Positions 1 through 6,595 of a stretch of 6,874 nt of DNA are shown here, one piece after another. The position numbers were made by a program, and so were the translations under genes. Source of the DNA: Patescibacteria group bacterium (GTDB lineage: Bacteria > Patescibacteriota > SOKK01); contig SOKK01000051.1 of the NCBI GenBank assembly GCA_004374725.1, forward strand, positions 1 to 6,874, written 5' to 3'. The notes beneath the pieces are model-generated. The model was not told the origin of the DNA. It worked only from the letters and a program-made list of their open reading frames with translations, and ran no database searches. Position 1 is the first letter of the stretch; every line of letters starts with the position of its first letter.

Positions 1-1587
1 TGGTACTTTGAGCGCTTTGATGTTGATATTCAAATCAATGAAGACTCTAACTTTCTGGTTCAAGAAACTCAAATTTTTAATTTCACTGGAAATTTTCATT
101 TTGTTACCCGAAATATTCTTAAAAGACGGTTAGATAAGATTACAAATGTACAGGTTTTGGAGGAGGATGGTACCCCACTTAAGAATGCTACCTACACGGT
201 AGATGAGGATAATGATTATGTTTATATCCGAGTTGATTTTAATCTTACAGATATAACAAAAACCTGGCTTTTTAGGTACCAGGTTTTAGGAGGAATTGGT
301 TATTTTGATACTTATGACGAGCTTTATTGGAATGCGGTTTCTTCGGAAAGGGAAGTTAAGATCAAAGAAAGTACGGTAAAGGTGACGCTTCCTACTAAGG
401 TTCCCAAAGAAGAGATGAAACAAGATCTTTTCACAGAAGCGGAGGAAAGCTCATTTAAGATTTTAGATCAAAGAACTTTCTTATGGGAAGCAAATGATCT
501 GCCAGCATATTCTAATTTGACACTTGTTTGCGGTTGGCCGAAAGGTTATGTTTTTGAACCGTTTACAAAATCAAAAGAGTTTCGTTTGATTATTGAAGTA
601 ATTGCTTTTGCAATTGTAATAGTCACTTTTGTTTTAATGCTGATACTTTGGCTTACAAAAGGACGCGATCGGGGCTTGAGAAAAACAATTGTTGCGCAAT
701 ATGAACCTCCGGACAAACTCTTGCCGGCAGAAATGGGAGTCTTGTTAAAAGAAAAGTTTGAGGCAAGGTTTATTACAGCGACTTTAATCAATTTGGCAGT
801 GAATGGTTATTTGAAGATTATTGAAAAAGAAAAGAAAGGTTGGATTGGAAAAGGTAAGTCTTATACTTTAGAAAAGCTAAAATCTAGCCAAAGCTTGAGT
901 GGTTATCAAAAGAAGATTTTTGAGGCTATTTTTGGAAGCAAGAAGAAAGTGCGACTCGATGAGTTGAAAAATAAGTTCTACCGTGAAATTGAAGATATTA
1001 AGGAAGAGCTTCGTAGTAATATTGCAAGAAGAGGTTATTTTGTTGCGGCTCCCTGGAAAGTAAGAACAACTTATTATCTACTCGCAGTTTTCTTAGGGGT
1101 AATTGGAATTGGTTTGATTTTCATGGACTTTTTGGGACACGGATGGCTGTCGTTAAGTTTCGTTACTTCAGGAATGATTGTCTTTTTGTTTGGGAGAAAG
1201 ATGCCTGCTCGTACAAAGGTAGGCTCCAGAGCTTATGAGCATGTTCTGGGTTTCAAAGAATACCTTCATACCGCGGAGCGCTTCCGTCTAAAAGTGATGA
1301 CGCCGGAAACTTTTGAGAAGTTTTTACCTTATGCCATTATTTTGAACGTTGAGAAACAGTGGGCAAGACGTTTTGAAAATATTTATCAAGACAGAAGTCC
1401 TAGTTGGTATGTTTCTTCTTCGAGAGGGTTTTCGGCCTATGCTTTGACCATTAGTCTAGGTTCGTTTAGTAACAATTTTTCAGCAACTGCCGCTTCGCGT
1501 CCCGGGGGTAGTGCTGGTTCTGGGAGTGGTTTTTCGGGCGGCTTCTCCGGCGGAGGCGGAGGCGGCGGAGGAAGTAGCGCGGGATAG
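1..1587 (+). CDS. DUF2207-family membrane protein, 5' end missing
   Basis: The frame is open from base 1 to the TAG at 1585-1587, giving 528 residues with the N terminus, presumably including a signal or anchor segment, outside the window. A TTG at 157 could mimic a start, but the upstream codons continue the typical DUF2207 beta-rich domain (FDVDIQIN..., then QIFNFTGNFHF), so the gene begins further upstream. Counting from base 1: predicted extracytoplasmic domain 1-195, membrane helix about 196-217, soluble region with a helix-rich segment (YEPPDKLLPAEMG, then LINLAVNGYLKI) about 218-355, two more helices about 358-377 and 381-398, then the conserved C-terminal block GFKEYL (from about 418), LPYA (442-445) and W453. 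The last 28 residues are almost all Gly and Ser, a usual end for this family. Molecular function is unknown; it is probably a surface or envelope protein. Confidence 0.85.
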   Translation, partial: WYFERFDVDIQINEDSNFLVQETQIFNFTGNFHFVTRNILKRRLDKITNVQVLEEDGTPLKNATYTVDEDNDYVYIRVDFNLTDITKTWLFRYQVLGGIGYFDTYDELYWNAVSSEREVKIKESTVKVTLPTKVPKEEMKQDLFTEAEESSFKILDQRTFLWEANDLPAYSNLTLVCGWPKGYVFEPFTKSKEFRLIIEVIAFAIVIVTFVLMLILWLTKGRDRGLRKTIVAQYEPPDKLLPAEMGVLLKEKFEARFITATLINLAVNGYLKIIEKEKKGWIGKGKSYTLEKLKSSQSLSGYQKKIFEAIFGSKKKVRLDELKNKFYREIEDIKEELRSNIARRGYFVAAPWKVRTTYYLLAVFLGVIGIGLIFMDFLGHGWLSLSFVTSGMIVFLFGRKMPARTKVGSRAYEHVLGFKEYLHTAERFRLKVMTPETFEKFLPYAIILNVEKQWARRFENIYQDRSPSWYVSSSRGFSAYALTISLGSFSNNFSATAASRPGGSAGSGSGFSGGFSGGGGGGGGSSAG

Positions 1588-1657: not shown

Positions 1658-3793
1658 TTACAATAAGCTTTCAGGGTCAATATCAATCCTCCAACTTGGT
1701 GGAACAGCAGGAAGAAGTTTTCGGACGCCCTTGCCTTTGAGGATCAAGTAGTAGCGATACTGATCACCAACCTTAGGAATAAAGGCAGGGGTAGGACCAA
1801 TGATTTCTGCGTCTTCAAGACCGATTTTGTGCTGGAAGCGCGCCAGGTTTAATTTCAATTTTACTCCCACCTCAAAACATTTCTCTTCTTTTTTGGCTGT
1901 GTAAATCAATTTGATTAGCTGCCCGAAGGGGGGATAATTTAATTCGCGACGGTCTTTCAATTCCTTTGCTAAAAGTTTTTGATAATTATTTGTGACCAAT
2001 GATCGTAGCGCAAGATTGTTTGGGATATAAGTTTGAATAATTGTTCGTCCAGGGTTTTTCTTATTTTGAATTGCGATTAAAAATTGATTGAGGAGTTGAA
2101 AAGTTTTTTCTTGATTACGAAAGTCAGGAAGGTTTAAGAGAGTATCAGCATTCACAATTCCTAAAAAACTGACGTTTGGAAAATGGAGGAAGGATTGAAT
2201 CATTTTGGTGCCGATTAAGATATCGGCTTTTTTGTTCTGGAATTTTTGGTAGATGTTGAAGAAAACAGATTTCTTGCTTGCACTGTCTTTGTCAATCCTT
2301 AGAATTTTGGCTTTGGGAAAGTATTTTTTAATCTCTTCTTCAATCTTTTGGGTTCCTAGCCCGAGATAGTTTAAGTAGTGACTATAGCAATTGGGGCAGC
2401 GTTTGGGAGCCTCGACTTGATAGTAACAGTGGTGACAGCGGAAGAGTTTCTTTTGATCTTGGGTGTGATAGACCAGAGGGATGTCACATCTTGGGCAACT
2501 AACAACATGCCCACACTCGCGACAGATTACAAGCGTTGCGCTGCCGCGGCGGTTTAAGAATAGAACTGCTTGTCCTTTGTTTTGAAGAGTCGCATTTAAT
2601 GTTTCCAAAAACCCATCACTAAAAATAGAGCGATTGCCTTTGTGGATTTCAGTAGTAAGGTCAACTATTTCTGCACGAGGCTTTTTCTTGGGCGGAATTC
2701 TAATTAGATTATATTTTTTTCTCTGGGTTGCGTAGTAACTTTCAACGCTGGGATTGGCACTTCCTAGAATTACAGGAATTTTTCGAAGTTGGTTTAACAT
2801 CAAGGTAATTTTTCTGGCATGATAGCGTGGGCTTTGTTCTTGTTTATAACTTGAGTCATGTTCGTTATCTAGAATCACCAAGCCCAGCTTTTTAAAAGGG
2901 CAGAATAAACTAGATCGGGAGCCAATAATGATCTTTGCTTCACCGCTCTGGATTTTGAGCCATTGGTGCATTTTGTGGGAGCGGGAAAGTTTGCTGTGCC
3001 AGATTGCAACCTGGTCGGGAAAATAGCTTAAGAGTTGCTTAATTTTAGCAGGGGTAAGGCTTATTTCAGGGACAATAAGTAGAACTTGTTTATCTTTAGA
3101 AATTACTTTTTTGATTTGTTCTAAATAAATTTTATCTTTGGTATTTCCGCTCTGATCAAAAATTAAATAAATTGGATTGTGGGCAAGATTGATTTTAGGA
3201 AGATTTAAAGGTTCAGGAATTTTTCTCTGTTTAACCTCTTTTTGATAAATGGCGAGAGGATCAGGATATTGAATTTCTTCAACTCCTTTAACAAGATGAT
3301 TTTTTAACATCTGCTTTAAGAGATTTTCAGAAACGTTTGTCCGGCGGGCAACTTCTTTTACCGAAAATGTTCCAGGATTTTTTTTAAGAAAATCTAAGAC
3401 TTTTTCTTGTTTTGGAGATTTTGGTTTTCTTCTTGTTCCTCGGAGATAGTTAATTTTGTAAAGAGTTTTTCCGCGCACATAACGAGGAGTGATTGCTTTG
3501 ATTACAATCCCCAAGGCGCATTTATAGTACTGACTGATCAGTTCTGCAAGCTGGAATTGATTTTCATCTAAAAGGGAAGTGGGGAAGATAATTTTTTTAA
3601 TATTGCGTGTGCCTTCAATTTCTGTTTCTTGGGTGGTTTTTAAAACTACCCCTGTAACTATTTGCCTACCAAAAGGTACCTCCACCACTTGCCCTTTCCT
3701 TAATCTCCTTCGTAAGGTTTTGGGGATAGAATAAGTGAAGGTTTGATAGTTTGGCTGGGTTCTTCGGGTGACAATTATTTCAGCGTAGTTCAT
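1658..3793 (-). CDS. priA: PriA-like replication restart protein with degenerate helicase motifs
   Basis: 711 aa, close to the 732 aa of E. coli PriA. PriA binds stalled or repaired forks and starts primosome reassembly. Domains: N-terminal 3'-DNA-binding domain about 1-103, winged helix about 124-175, helicase lobe 1 about 205-370, lobe 2 about 390-595 holding the zinc-binding insert, and a C-terminal domain about 615-711. All eight zinc cysteines are present (424, 427, 433, 436, 453, 456, 466, 469). VPEISLTP (241-248), SSYKQ plus RYHARK (aromatic-rich loop, about 314-328) and LFLNRRG (411-417) are kept. The motor motifs are not: Walker A GVTGSGKT is DQSGNTKD (213-220), DEEH is DNEH (309-312), GSATPS is GSANPS (344-349), KGHHFP of motif V is SFLHFP, and QVAGRAGR of motif VI is lost (about 570-577). 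I checked motifs I and II codon by codon. The start matches the family N terminus, though no Shine-Dalgarno precedes it. Confidence 0.93.
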   Translation of the reverse strand: MNYAEIIVTRRTQPNYQTFTYSIPKTLRRRLRKGQVVEVPFGRQIVTGVVLKTTQETEIEGTRNIKKIIFPTSLLDENQFQLAELISQYYKCALGIVIKAITPRYVRGKTLYKINYLRGTRRKPKSPKQEKVLDFLKKNPGTFSVKEVARRTNVSENLLKQMLKNHLVKGVEEIQYPDPLAIYQKEVKQRKIPEPLNLPKINLAHNPIYLIFDQSGNTKDKIYLEQIKKVISKDKQVLLIVPEISLTPAKIKQLLSYFPDQVAIWHSKLSRSHKMHQWLKIQSGEAKIIIGSRSSLFCPFKKLGLVILDNEHDSSYKQEQSPRYHARKITLMLNQLRKIPVILGSANPSVESYYATQRKKYNLIRIPPKKKPRAEIVDLTTEIHKGNRSIFSDGFLETLNATLQNKGQAVLFLNRRGSATLVICRECGHVVSCPRCDIPLVYHTQDQKKLFRCHHCYYQVEAPKRCPNCYSHYLNYLGLGTQKIEEEIKKYFPKAKILRIDKDSASKKSVFFNIYQKFQNKKADILIGTKMIQSFLHFPNVSFLGIVNADTLLNLPDFRNQEKTFQLLNQFLIAIQNKKNPGRTIIQTYIPNNLALRSLVTNNYQKLLAKELKDRRELNYPPFGQLIKLIYTAKKEEKCFEVGVKLKLNLARFQHKIGLEDAEIIGPTPAFIPKVGDQYRYYLILKGKGVRKLLPAVPPSWRIDIDPESLL

Positions 3794-3844: not shown

Positions 3845-4216
3845 TTATTTTTTTGTCAGGAAATAAAATTCAATCAGAATAATAATTGCAACAAACAAAA
3901 TTCCGTCCCACCAGGTTAAAAGATTGAGTGCTTGTAAAGCCAGGATTCCCACAAAAGCAAAGGCGACGAAGATTCCCTGGCGGAAGGAGATGTTAATATT
4001 AGCGTAGTAAAGTTCGTTATGACTGGCCCAAGTCCGGATGTAGAAGCCAATAATCGTGAAGGTGCCCGCGAGAGCAAAAAAGAAACTGACAAAAAAGCAA
4101 CTCAGAGCTAAAACCCTAGAAGTCTCGGGGCTGATATAGAGAATGGTAAGAATAAATGCAATCCAGCAGATAATGCTACTAGCACCAATTCCTAAAAGAT
4201 AACTTTGAAGTCGCAT
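3845..4216 (-). CDS. Small four-helix membrane protein, function unknown
   Basis: 123 aa, with four predicted membrane helices at about 7-29, 35-60, 80-100 and 103-120, separated by short turns. The longest loop (61-79, starting RTWASHNELYY) carries most of the charged residues. The motifs SFRQG (77-81) and LLTWWDGIL (99-107) followed by EFYF resemble, from memory, a conserved hypothetical family seen in Patescibacteria; I cannot name a function. It has its own extended -10 promoter at 4266-4275 and a terminator after it, so it looks monocistronic although it lies upstream of priA on the same strand. An AGGAGG stretch sits 17-18 nt before the ATG, farther than usual, and is paired in a hairpin (4233-4250). 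The composition, length and clean flanking signals make it a real gene. Confidence 0.8.
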   Translation of the reverse strand: MRLQSYLLGIGASSIICWIAFILTILYISPETSRVLALSCFFVSFFFALAGTFTIIGFYIRTWASHNELYYANINISFRQGIFVAFAFVGILALQALNLLTWWDGILFVAIIILIEFYFLTKK

Positions 4217-4918: not shown

Positions 4919-5353
4919 TCATTTATTACTGTGCCAGATCGTCATGATCTCGCCGAAGATTTCGGTGGAGCAACCAATGATGACCATGTTGATCTCAGTA
5001 AGGAGAGGGTAAGGGTGATGAGTGCTCTCACGGACTAGTTCCTCGATCTGTTCCTCATTGAGTTCGTAGCGGTGCGCGGCTTCGGTGGGGAAGATTCGCT
5101 TGTTGACTTCTTTCCAAAAGTTCCGGAGATTGTCCGCTGAACGATTTATCCCGTTTTCTCCGACAATCTTAGCTATTTCTTCGTGGGAGGGAAATTTCTG
5201 GGGGTTAGTTGTTACCTCCACATTTGCGTTGTAGAAATACTTAAGAACAAGCAGCCCGAAGATATTTTGGGCGTTGATGTCGTGAACAAAGTCTTTTCTC
5301 TCAAACGCCTCGGCTAAGAAAGCCGGTACTACTCTTAACAATGAGGTAGGCAT
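4919..5353 (-). CDS. Hypothetical soluble protein, 144 aa
   Basis: I do not recognise this protein. It has excellent expression signals: AGGAGG (5366-5361) 7 nt before the ATG, a -35/-10 promoter just upstream, and a strong terminator after its TGA. No signal peptide or confident membrane helix is seen. The sequence is largely helical: about 8-19, 28-42 (AQNIFGLLVLKYFYN), 56-65 (HEEIAKIVGE), 72-88 (SADNLRNFWKEVNKRIF), and 98-110 (LNEEQIEELVRES), then a hydrophobic strand-like end (INMVIIGCS, 120-128). A histidine pair at about 111-112 is followed by PYPLL. By hand count 4921-5280 is about 47% GC, against about 34% in sampled parts of priA, hinting at separate origin or different selection. 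No catalytic motif is clear and I propose no function. Confidence 0.75.
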   Translation of the reverse strand: MPTSLLRVVPAFLAEAFERKDFVHDINAQNIFGLLVLKYFYNANVEVTTNPQKFPSHEEIAKIVGENGINRSADNLRNFWKEVNKRIFPTEAAHRYELNEEQIEELVRESTHHPYPLLTEINMVIIGCSTEIFGEIMTIWHSNK

Positions 5354-5406: not shown

Positions 5407-5435
5407 ATCGTAGCATTACCAAGTGTTAGAGTCAA
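5407..5435 (-). promoter_or_regulatory. Sigma70-like promoter of the 144-aa gene
   Basis: On the - strand, a -35 TTGACT (5435-5430, five of six), a 17-nt spacer ending in TGC, and a -10 TACGAT (5412-5407, four of six). Predicted start near 5400 leaves a leader of about 47 nt with a strong ribosome-binding site. It lies back to back with the + strand promoter at 5457-5466. Confidence 0.72.
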
Positions 5436-5456
5436 TCTACCCAATTTATGTCTTTT

Positions 5457-5466
5457 ATGCTATAAC
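5457..5466 (+). promoter_or_regulatory. Extended -10 promoter of the AI-2E transporter gene
   Basis: ATGCTATAAC: extended -10 TG followed by TATAAC (five of six), with only a weak -35 match (TACCCA, 5438-5443). Predicted start near 5473 gives a short leader of about 19 nt before the ATG at 5492. It lies downstream of the GTG at 5423 and so argues against that earlier start. Confidence 0.55.
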
Positions 5467-5491
5467 TAAAGCGGAAACTTTAATCAAAACC

Positions 5492-6595
5492 ATGCCTCAA
5501 AAATTATTAAAAATTGATATTTCCTACCGCACTTTCCTGAAGGCGGCAGTCGTTTTTGCCCTGCTTATCTTTGCTTACCTTGTCCGGGAAGTTATTCTGG
5601 CTTTGGCAGTTGGATTAATCGTCGCTTCGGCCGTTAATCCTTTAGCGAACTGGTTTGAAAAACGGAGGATCCCCCGGGCTTTAAGTATTTTACTTGTCTA
5701 TGCTTTGATTATTTTAATCCTTGCCCTGGTTATCTTCTTGATTATTCCACCTCTTTCAAGCGAAATGGGTCAGTTGGCGGATAATATGCCAGGTTACTTA
5801 GAGGAAGTTAGCAACCGCTTTGATAAAGCCCAGGGATTTATAGAGCGGAATAATTTAGTTGATAATTTTGAAACTGCGATTGATCGGATTGGGGAGCAAT
5901 TAACAACAGTTGCCGGAAATGCAGTCAGTTCTACGATCGGTTTCTTTGGGGGATTGATTTCGGTAATCTTGATTATTTTCCTTTCTTTCTATCTTGTTGT
6001 GGAAGAACAACGGATCAAACGCTTCTTTGCCTTGATAATCCCTTCTAGAAATCGTAAGCAAATTGCACGTCTTGTCAATGGCAGCCAGAAGAAGATTGGG
6101 GCCTGGTTGAGAGGTCAACTGGTATTGAGTTTAGCGATCTTTTTGATTACATGGATAGTTCTTTCACTTCTGGGGGTAAAATATGCTCTAGCTTTGGCTT
6201 TAATTGCAGGGATCTTGGAAATCATTCCAATTATCGGGCCAGTTATTGCAGCGATTCCTGCAATTCTTGTTGGTTTATCGCAGTCTTGGTGGTTAGGTCT
6301 AATTGTTCTGGCACTCTATATTTTAATTCAGCAATTAGAAAATCATCTCCTGGTTCCCAAGATCATGCAGAAGGCAACAGGAATCAATCCGGTGCTGATT
6401 ATTTTAGGAATCTTAGCGGGAGCAAAACTGGGGGGAATCTTGGGGATGCTTGTGGCGGTTCCAATTATGGCCGGACTTTCGGTTTGGGTTTGGGAGTGGA
6501 TTGAAATAAAGAATAAGGGTAGAGGTCAGAGCTTGCCCCGAGCGAAGTCGAGGGGGTCAAAGGGTAGAGGTAAGAAATCTAGGCGGAAGAAATAA
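5492..6595 (+). CDS. AI-2E family transporter (UPF0118/PerM/TqsA-like membrane protein)
   Basis: 367 aa from the ATG at 5492. A GTG at 5423 would add 23 residues but lies upstream of the predicted promoter. The family includes the E. coli exporter TqsA and Na+/H+ antiporters; the substrate here cannot be read from sequence. Predicted helices lie at about 14-31, 34-50, 64-87, 148-170, 207-229, 231-262, 265-284 and 299-335, with a soluble stretch at about 88-145 between the third and fourth. Family hallmarks are clear: LRGQL (206-210), LEIIPIIGPVIAAIPA (242-257), QQLENHLLVPKIM (280-292) and GGILGMLVAVPI (314-325). No Shine-Dalgarno is seen. The C-terminal tail after 340 is unusually basic and carries a 15-residue in-frame insertion with a repeated KGRG (342-345 and 357-360). 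The DNA shows this comes from a bracketed palindromic element. Confidence 0.92.
   Translation: MPQKLLKIDISYRTFLKAAVVFALLIFAYLVREVILALAVGLIVASAVNPLANWFEKRRIPRALSILLVYALIILILALVIFLIIPPLSSEMGQLADNMPGYLEEVSNRFDKAQGFIERNNLVDNFETAIDRIGEQLTTVAGNAVSSTIGFFGGLISVILIIFLSFYLVVEEQRIKRFFALIIPSRNRKQIARLVNGSQKKIGAWLRGQLVLSLAIFLITWIVLSLLGVKYALALALIAGILEIIPIIGPVIAAIPAILVGLSQSWWLGLIVLALYILIQQLENHLLVPKIMQKATGINPVLIILGILAGAKLGGILGMLVAVPIMAGLSVWVWEWIEIKNKGRGQSLPRAKSRGSKGRGKKSRRKK
6515..6571. repeat. 33-bp imperfectly palindromic element bracketed by a 12-bp direct repeat
   Basis: AAGGGTAGAGGT occurs at 6515-6526 and again, perfectly, at 6560-6571. The 33 bp between them hold an imperfect inverted repeat: TTG (6533-6535) CCCCGA (6536-6541), loop GCGAAG, TCG (6548-6550), GGGG, then CAA (6558-6560). 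Its core GAGCGAAGTCGA resembles a short palindromic repeat I recall from many environmental genomes (memory, not checked). Element plus one 12-mer is 45 bp, 15 codons, so the frame is kept and it encodes QSLPRAKSRGS between two KGRG copies. This is consistent with insertion plus target duplication; replication slippage is the alternative. Confidence 0.75.

Follow-up and report, generated by a model that had tools for sequence, protein, structure and literature searches.

A PriA-like protein with broken helicase motor motifs in a Patescibacteria group bacterium, and its motorless counterparts in the phylum

Introduction

Can PriA, the protein that recognizes abandoned replication forks, do without its helicase motor? 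This question is raised by a priA-like gene in a stretch of 6,874 nucleotides (the window: positions 1 to 6,874 of contig SOKK01000051.1, GenBank assembly GCA_004374725.1) from a Patescibacteria group bacterium. A preliminary description of the window, made from the sequence alone, proposed that the gene encodes a PriA that has lost the motor but kept its binding surfaces, and that it is maintained by selection rather than decaying. It also pointed to precedents in actinobacteria and in Deinococcus, the second of which we could verify: according to the available text of PMC4504706, the helicase motifs of PriA are well conserved with the notable exception of Deinococcus-Thermus, and PriA of Deinococcus radiodurans is without ATPase activity but binds DNA, forks and DnaB directly. 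The same text mentions no clear priB or dnaT homologue in D. radiodurans, and states that E. coli remains viable with an ATPase-dead priA and that primosomes are assembled by a PriA of this kind. Moreover, the available text of PMC10175261 describes that fork binding by E. coli PriA swings the cysteine-rich region, creating a pore for the lagging strand, and that a DnaB-loading assay employed PriA K230A variants.

Results

The gene of the window belongs to the PriA family

The gene and its retained domains are as follows.

1658..3793, minus strand: priA-like gene for a motorless PriA, 711 codons, ATG start
3485..3751, minus strand: retained 3' DNA-binding domain of PriA at residues 15-103 (70.0 bits to Pfam PF17764, against a cut-off of 22.7)
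2387..2524, minus strand: cysteine-rich region, residues 424-469, eight cysteines kept (alignment; Pfam PF18319)
1712..1930, minus strand: retained C-terminal domain of PriA at residues 622-694 (46.7 bits to Pfam PF18074, against a cut-off of 26.9)

The coordinates and the intact frame of 711 codons had been given correctly in the preliminary description, to which we add the strand: the plus strand carries 35 stops over 1658..3793, and the PriA frame is open on the minus strand. The protein scored 522.3 bits against the PriA profile TIGR00595 (cut-off 230.35) and matched the solved E. coli PriA 8fak at E 2e-94. On the other hand, its scores for RecG (36.4 vs 659.4 bits) and Mfd (41.9 vs 800 bits) were far below the respective thresholds. 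The match of the zinc region to PF18319 was slightly below the cut-off (24.5 vs 26 bits).

The motor motifs are broken and the binding surfaces are kept

To obtain relatives, a collection of 5.8 billion proteins was searched; 8000 candidates sharing the most words were scored and the best 120 of the 8000 were listed. Among the matches listed, the five closest relatives are 69-86% identical to the window's protein, have 708-719 amino acids and show the same motif losses; together with the window's own protein they are called the clan here. We scored the motif columns that are invariant in six motor-bearing PriAs as kept or not in the six clan proteins. In superfamily 2 helicases, these motifs contact ATP or DNA.

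3134..3157, minus strand: motif I (Walker A), degenerate, reading DQSGNTKD at residues 213-220; all six clan proteins keep 2/7 motor-invariant columns
2858..2869, minus strand: motif II (Walker B), degenerate, reading DNEH at residues 309-312; 3/4 columns kept, catalytic Glu lost
2810..2854, minus strand: aromatic-rich loop region, residues 314-328, kept; 5/6 motor-invariant columns in all six clan rows
2747..2764, minus strand: altered motif III, GSANPS, residues 344-349; 3/5 columns kept
2180..2212, minus strand: altered motif V, GTKMIQSFLHF, residues 528-538, KG lost; 3/6 columns kept
2057..2086, minus strand: lost motif VI, QFLIAIQNKK, residues 570-579, without arginines; 1/7 motor-invariant columns kept

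The patterns of an active superfamily 2 motor (GxTGSGKT in motif I, DEEH in motif II and AGRAGR in motif VI) are absent from the window's protein. Thus, the losses in motifs I, II, III, V and VI that had been read from the sequence were all borne out by comparison with 8fak and the six motor-bearing PriAs. None of the six clan proteins has the Gly that precedes the Walker lysine K219, the Thr/Ser that follows it, the catalytic Glu or the motif VI arginines; the position of the catalytic Glu is Asn in the window's protein only and Asp in the five relatives. K219, G216 and the Walker B residues D309, E311 and H312 are retained in all six; the preliminary description does not mention that the lysine is still there. 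The clan also keeps columns in the other motifs (Ia 5/5, Ib 1/2, Ic 4/5, IV 5/5, IVa 3/4) and in three stretches of the zinc region (6/8, 3/3, 2/3). All eight zinc cysteines (424, 427, 433, 436, 453, 456, 466 and 469) are present and invariant in the clan alignment, and the earlier observation of these cysteines and of the aromatic-rich loop agrees with the alignment. In short, the PriA of the window and its five closest relatives is without most of the residues predicted for ATP use and keeps the parts predicted to grip DNA.

That this protein does not hydrolyze ATP is a strong prediction; that it does not bind a nucleotide is a weaker one, because the retained K219 and D309 leave binding possible. 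It might then act as a nucleotide-dependent switch, holding ATP or ADP via K219 and D309 without turnover, with the nucleotide state altering its grip on the fork. The five residues retained throughout the clan fit such a switch, but the Gly and Thr/Ser flanking the lysine are lost in 6/6, motif VI has no arginines, and the phylum's other motorless genes show no P-loop pattern at the motif I position, so we consider it unlikely.

The motorless gene is probably maintained across the clan

When random mutation of the window's gene was simulated to 86, 72 and 69% identity, stops arose at a mean of 6.2, 11.7 and 13.1, respectively, and the frame stayed open in 0/200 runs at each of the three divergences. 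Chance is excluded as the cause of the motif losses on this comparison of sequences, because the losses are found in 6/6 clan members and no neutral run kept an open frame. Classification of the best 120 of the 8000 candidates by their motif pattern (I, II, V and VI) gave 0/4 motifs for the six clan entries, 4/4 for 112 and 3/4 for two. Close relatives with intact motifs, which would point to a private decay, were not found among the matches listed, where 5/5 relatives at 69-86% identity share the losses.

To evaluate the constraint on the helicase lobes, divergence was compared between domains in groups of 2-23 sequences. The ratio of lobe to C-terminal-domain divergence was 0.50-0.78 in eight motor families, 1.00 in the window's clan and 0.88-0.98 in six other motorless families; the ratio of lobe to 3'-binding-domain divergence was 0.58-0.76, 1.00 and 0.90-1.55, respectively. 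In each of the seven motorless groups analysed, the extra constraint on motor lobes has vanished or is greatly weakened, and some further relaxation of the lobes is visible in the older motorless families. That the lobes of the clan are conserved to the same degree as its 3'-binding and C-terminal domains fits a scaffold. This conservation, and the frames that remain open up to 31% protein divergence, argue for selection rather than decay, as had been proposed.

A gene on its way to a pseudogene by private or recent loss is very unlikely, since the motorless state is shared, with open frames, by six proteins whose identity reaches down to 69%, all neutral runs yielded stops, and the clan lobes evolve no faster than the 3'-binding and C-terminal domains. 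In favour of decay, PriA is reduced to short remnants or has no clear match in many genomes across the phylum, so its loss may be an end point in the group.

With regard to the host, the relative at 86% identity carries the name 'Patescibacteria group bacterium', consistent with the probable Patescibacterium of the preliminary description. The genus, family, order and class of the window's genome are each represented in the genome collection by this genome alone, and a contig scan for clan DNA gave one distant PriA (32% identity, Oscillospiraceae).

The draft genome and the neighbouring genes

The draft genome of the window is 78% complete. A second intact PriA, which would count against the proposed role, was sought: TIGR00595 gave three matches in the draft, and the protein search recovered the window's PriA only. 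One clear DnaB gene is present. The other features of the window are as follows.

1-1587, plus strand: DUF2207 membrane protein (family match), frame open at the 5' end, 528 amino acids, glycine-rich tail
3845-4216, minus strand: frame of 123 amino acids without Pfam, NCBIfam or PADLOC match
4919-5353, minus strand: frame of 144 amino acids without Pfam, NCBIfam or PADLOC match
5423-6595, plus strand: AI-2E family transporter (PF01594, 250 bits)

No replication gene is found among the neighbours in the window with a family match. This would suit a role outside replication restart, such as binding of branched DNA for recombination or DNA uptake. Such a role is quite unlikely: the protein is the sole PriA found in the draft, DnaB is present, and the domains used by PriA on forks are retained.

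RecG was considered as a substitute motor tied to the state of PriA. With Mfd-sized frames included, RecG matches at E <= 1e-60 were found in 73/76 genomes searched; outside such frames, matches (some of them partial) occur in 34/36 motorless and 38/40 motor genomes. We therefore see no tie between RecG and the PriA state.

Motorless PriA in the phylum

In 379 genomes of the phylum, TIGR00595 matched in 377 at E <= 0.001 with related helicases included, and in 138 above the cut-off. Further PriAs were found by a profile of 38 motorless PriAs and three clan members, and the PriA gene was read in 192 genomes. Genes were counted as having a motor when motif I contained GK[TS] and motif II contained DE; by this definition, 112 have a motor (45 families) and 70 are motorless (41 families, the window's included). 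The other ten are fragments or edge pieces: nine under 450 amino acids, two of which (G183 and G034) show motor motifs where readable, and a contig-edge piece (G187) with motifs II, V and VI intact. Among the 187 unread genomes, two have matches like a full PriA (G022 and G261; E 6e-154 and 3e-132), eleven have weaker ones (E 4e-47 to 7e-21) and 174 have none under 1e-20; in these 174, PriA may be absent or too diverged for detection.

Misalignment does not explain the missing motif I. The pattern G....GK[ST] occurs anywhere in only 2/70 motorless genes (G071 and G171), where it lies beyond residue 365 beside the zinc-segment cysteines, away from the motif I site, while the motif I pattern (first residue G or E) is present in 112/112 motor genes. 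Similarly, a pattern search for GRxGR of motif VI found none in the 70 motorless genes. The zinc segment has exactly eight cysteines in 46 motorless genes, more in 6 and fewer in 18; in the motor genes, it has eight in 90, more in 11 and fewer in 11. In an alignment of 41 motorless rows, three of them from the window's clan, the 3'-binding domain was found in 39, the C-terminal domain in 18 and the zinc ribbon in 10.

Some other genomes show unusual arrangements. Eight (G031, G037, G089, G137, G149, G195, G205 and G346) carry PriA-like frames of 503-592 amino acids in which a script counted zero zinc-segment cysteines, perhaps a further stage of reduction. In family f9 (G008, G029, G047, G065, G079 and G107; loci L297 and L298), the PriA-like matches are split into separate frames. 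The later half covers roughly positions 331-628 of the profile and lies on frames of ~312-333 amino acids, the earlier half on other frames of ~210-463 amino acids; the halves are on opposite strands in G029 and on the same strand in G047, and G107 has its match in three or more pieces.

Probable repeated loss of the motor

Two trees were compared with the state of PriA. The RpoB tree covers 76 genomes (40 motor, 36 motorless; 80 were searched, 78 had RpoB and two of the 78 were left out) and places the motorless genomes in ten separate clades, requiring nine changes, of which at least seven are forced by starred branches. The PriA tree of 88 rows, built with motif columns removed and with close motor-bearing relatives of G233 and G330 added, has five separate motorless clades and requires five changes, at least four being forced by starred branches. 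The clearest losses are those of G233, nested in a motor-bearing family with a family support of 100 in both trees, and of G330, which adjoins the motor-bearing G280 with a support of 99 on PriA and 100 on RpoB. A single motorless clade was rejected by the approximately unbiased (AU) test on both RpoB (p 0.0004) and PriA (p 0.009). With these tests and the changes counted on the two trees, a single origin of motorless PriA is rejected, and the motor was probably lost repeatedly within the phylum.

The number of losses is uncertain, because these are quick trees with one support test and long branches attract each other. In an earlier PriA tree of 103 rows, also without motif columns, all 45 motorless rows lay on one side of a branch with a support of 94, but this tree lacked the motor-bearing PriAs nearest to those of G233 and G330. 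The position of the window's clan differs between the 103-row and 88-row trees, and no starred set fixes it on RpoB. Transfer of motorless genes would likewise produce disagreement between the RpoB and PriA trees.

Family f63 mixes genomes with motor-bearing PriA (G105, G275 and others) and the motorless G233; it also holds four genomes (G134, G206, G299 and G375) whose only matches to the motorless profile are weak (E above 1e-9).

Discussion

We think it rather likely that the PriA of the window is an ATP-independent platform that recognizes abandoned replication forks and recruits the replicative helicase DnaB. The 3'-binding domain would hold the end of the nascent leading strand, and the remaining arms of the fork would be gripped by the winged helix together with the inactive helicase lobes. 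The zinc region and the C-terminal domain would frame the single-stranded lagging template and, by analogy with Deinococcus PriA, might dock DnaB directly. A motorless PriA would leave the nascent lagging strand unopened. Its substrates would then be forks whose lagging arm is already single-stranded or is exposed by another helicase, because no motor is there to unwind the strand.

Besides the possible nucleotide binding, several observations weigh against such a platform. A second PriA could sit in the missing part of the genome, because the draft is incomplete. For RecG, a candidate substitute motor, the incomplete draft yielded no match at E <= 1e-60. In 4/6 of the other motorless families, the lobes outpace the 3'-binding domain (1.06-1.55). 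Moreover, mean identity within the clan is lower in the zinc region and the winged helix (0.67 and 0.65) than in the lobes (0.73 and 0.74).

For the phylum as a whole, we lean towards the view that Patescibacteria lost the motor repeatedly (five clades on the PriA tree, ten on RpoB) and kept the fork-binding shell each time, that a large share of them restart replication without an ATP-driven PriA, and that the window's clan represents the first stage. Our literature searches, whose coverage of subscription journals was thin, found no report of motorless PriA in Patescibacteria. The available part of PMC10849945, on novel families, has priA among the genes of its Fig. 4 and mentions it for the phylum UBP6, and the main text of PMC10633639 on the genetics of Saccharibacteria does not mention PriA. 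If true, the repeated loss in Patescibacteria would be a second, larger case beyond Deinococcus-Thermus, and it would show that selection on PriA acts at its core on recognizing forks and recruiting DnaB, with the motor as an optional part. Natural motor-free PriAs would be good material for testing DnaB loading without unwinding. There is also a warning for annotation: the window's protein exceeds the cut-off of TIGR00595, 'replication restart helicase', by about 300 bits despite its broken motor motifs.

Finally, the window's PriA can be compared with known systems. E. coli PriA (8fak, 6dcr and 6dgd) and an ADP-bound PriA (4nl4) have the same overall fold over nearly the full length and share the cysteine-rich region and the aromatic loop; however, E. 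coli PriA has a working ATPase, whereas the motor motifs of the window's PriA are broken. The motor-bearing PriAs of the phylum belong to the PriA family as well (the listed rows with a motor show 29-45% identity), but they keep Walker A GK[ST] and DExx, and their lobes are more conserved than the C-terminal domain in the eight families. The other motorless PriAs of the phylum have lost the motor motifs as in the window and mostly have the 3'-binding domain, but they are far more diverged (non-clan rows are 19-67% identical to the first row of the motorless alignment) and shorter (median 621 amino acids). The closest published case is the pseudohelicase PriA of Deinococcus, which has PriA descent and broken Walker motifs in common with the window's protein. 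That case comes from a different phylum, with 17 aligned members, and includes biochemistry. The two also broke differently: the Walker lysine is Arg in Deinococcus PriA, while in the window's clan the lysine stays in 6/6 rows and the glycine, the Thr/Ser, the catalytic Glu and the motif VI arginines are gone.
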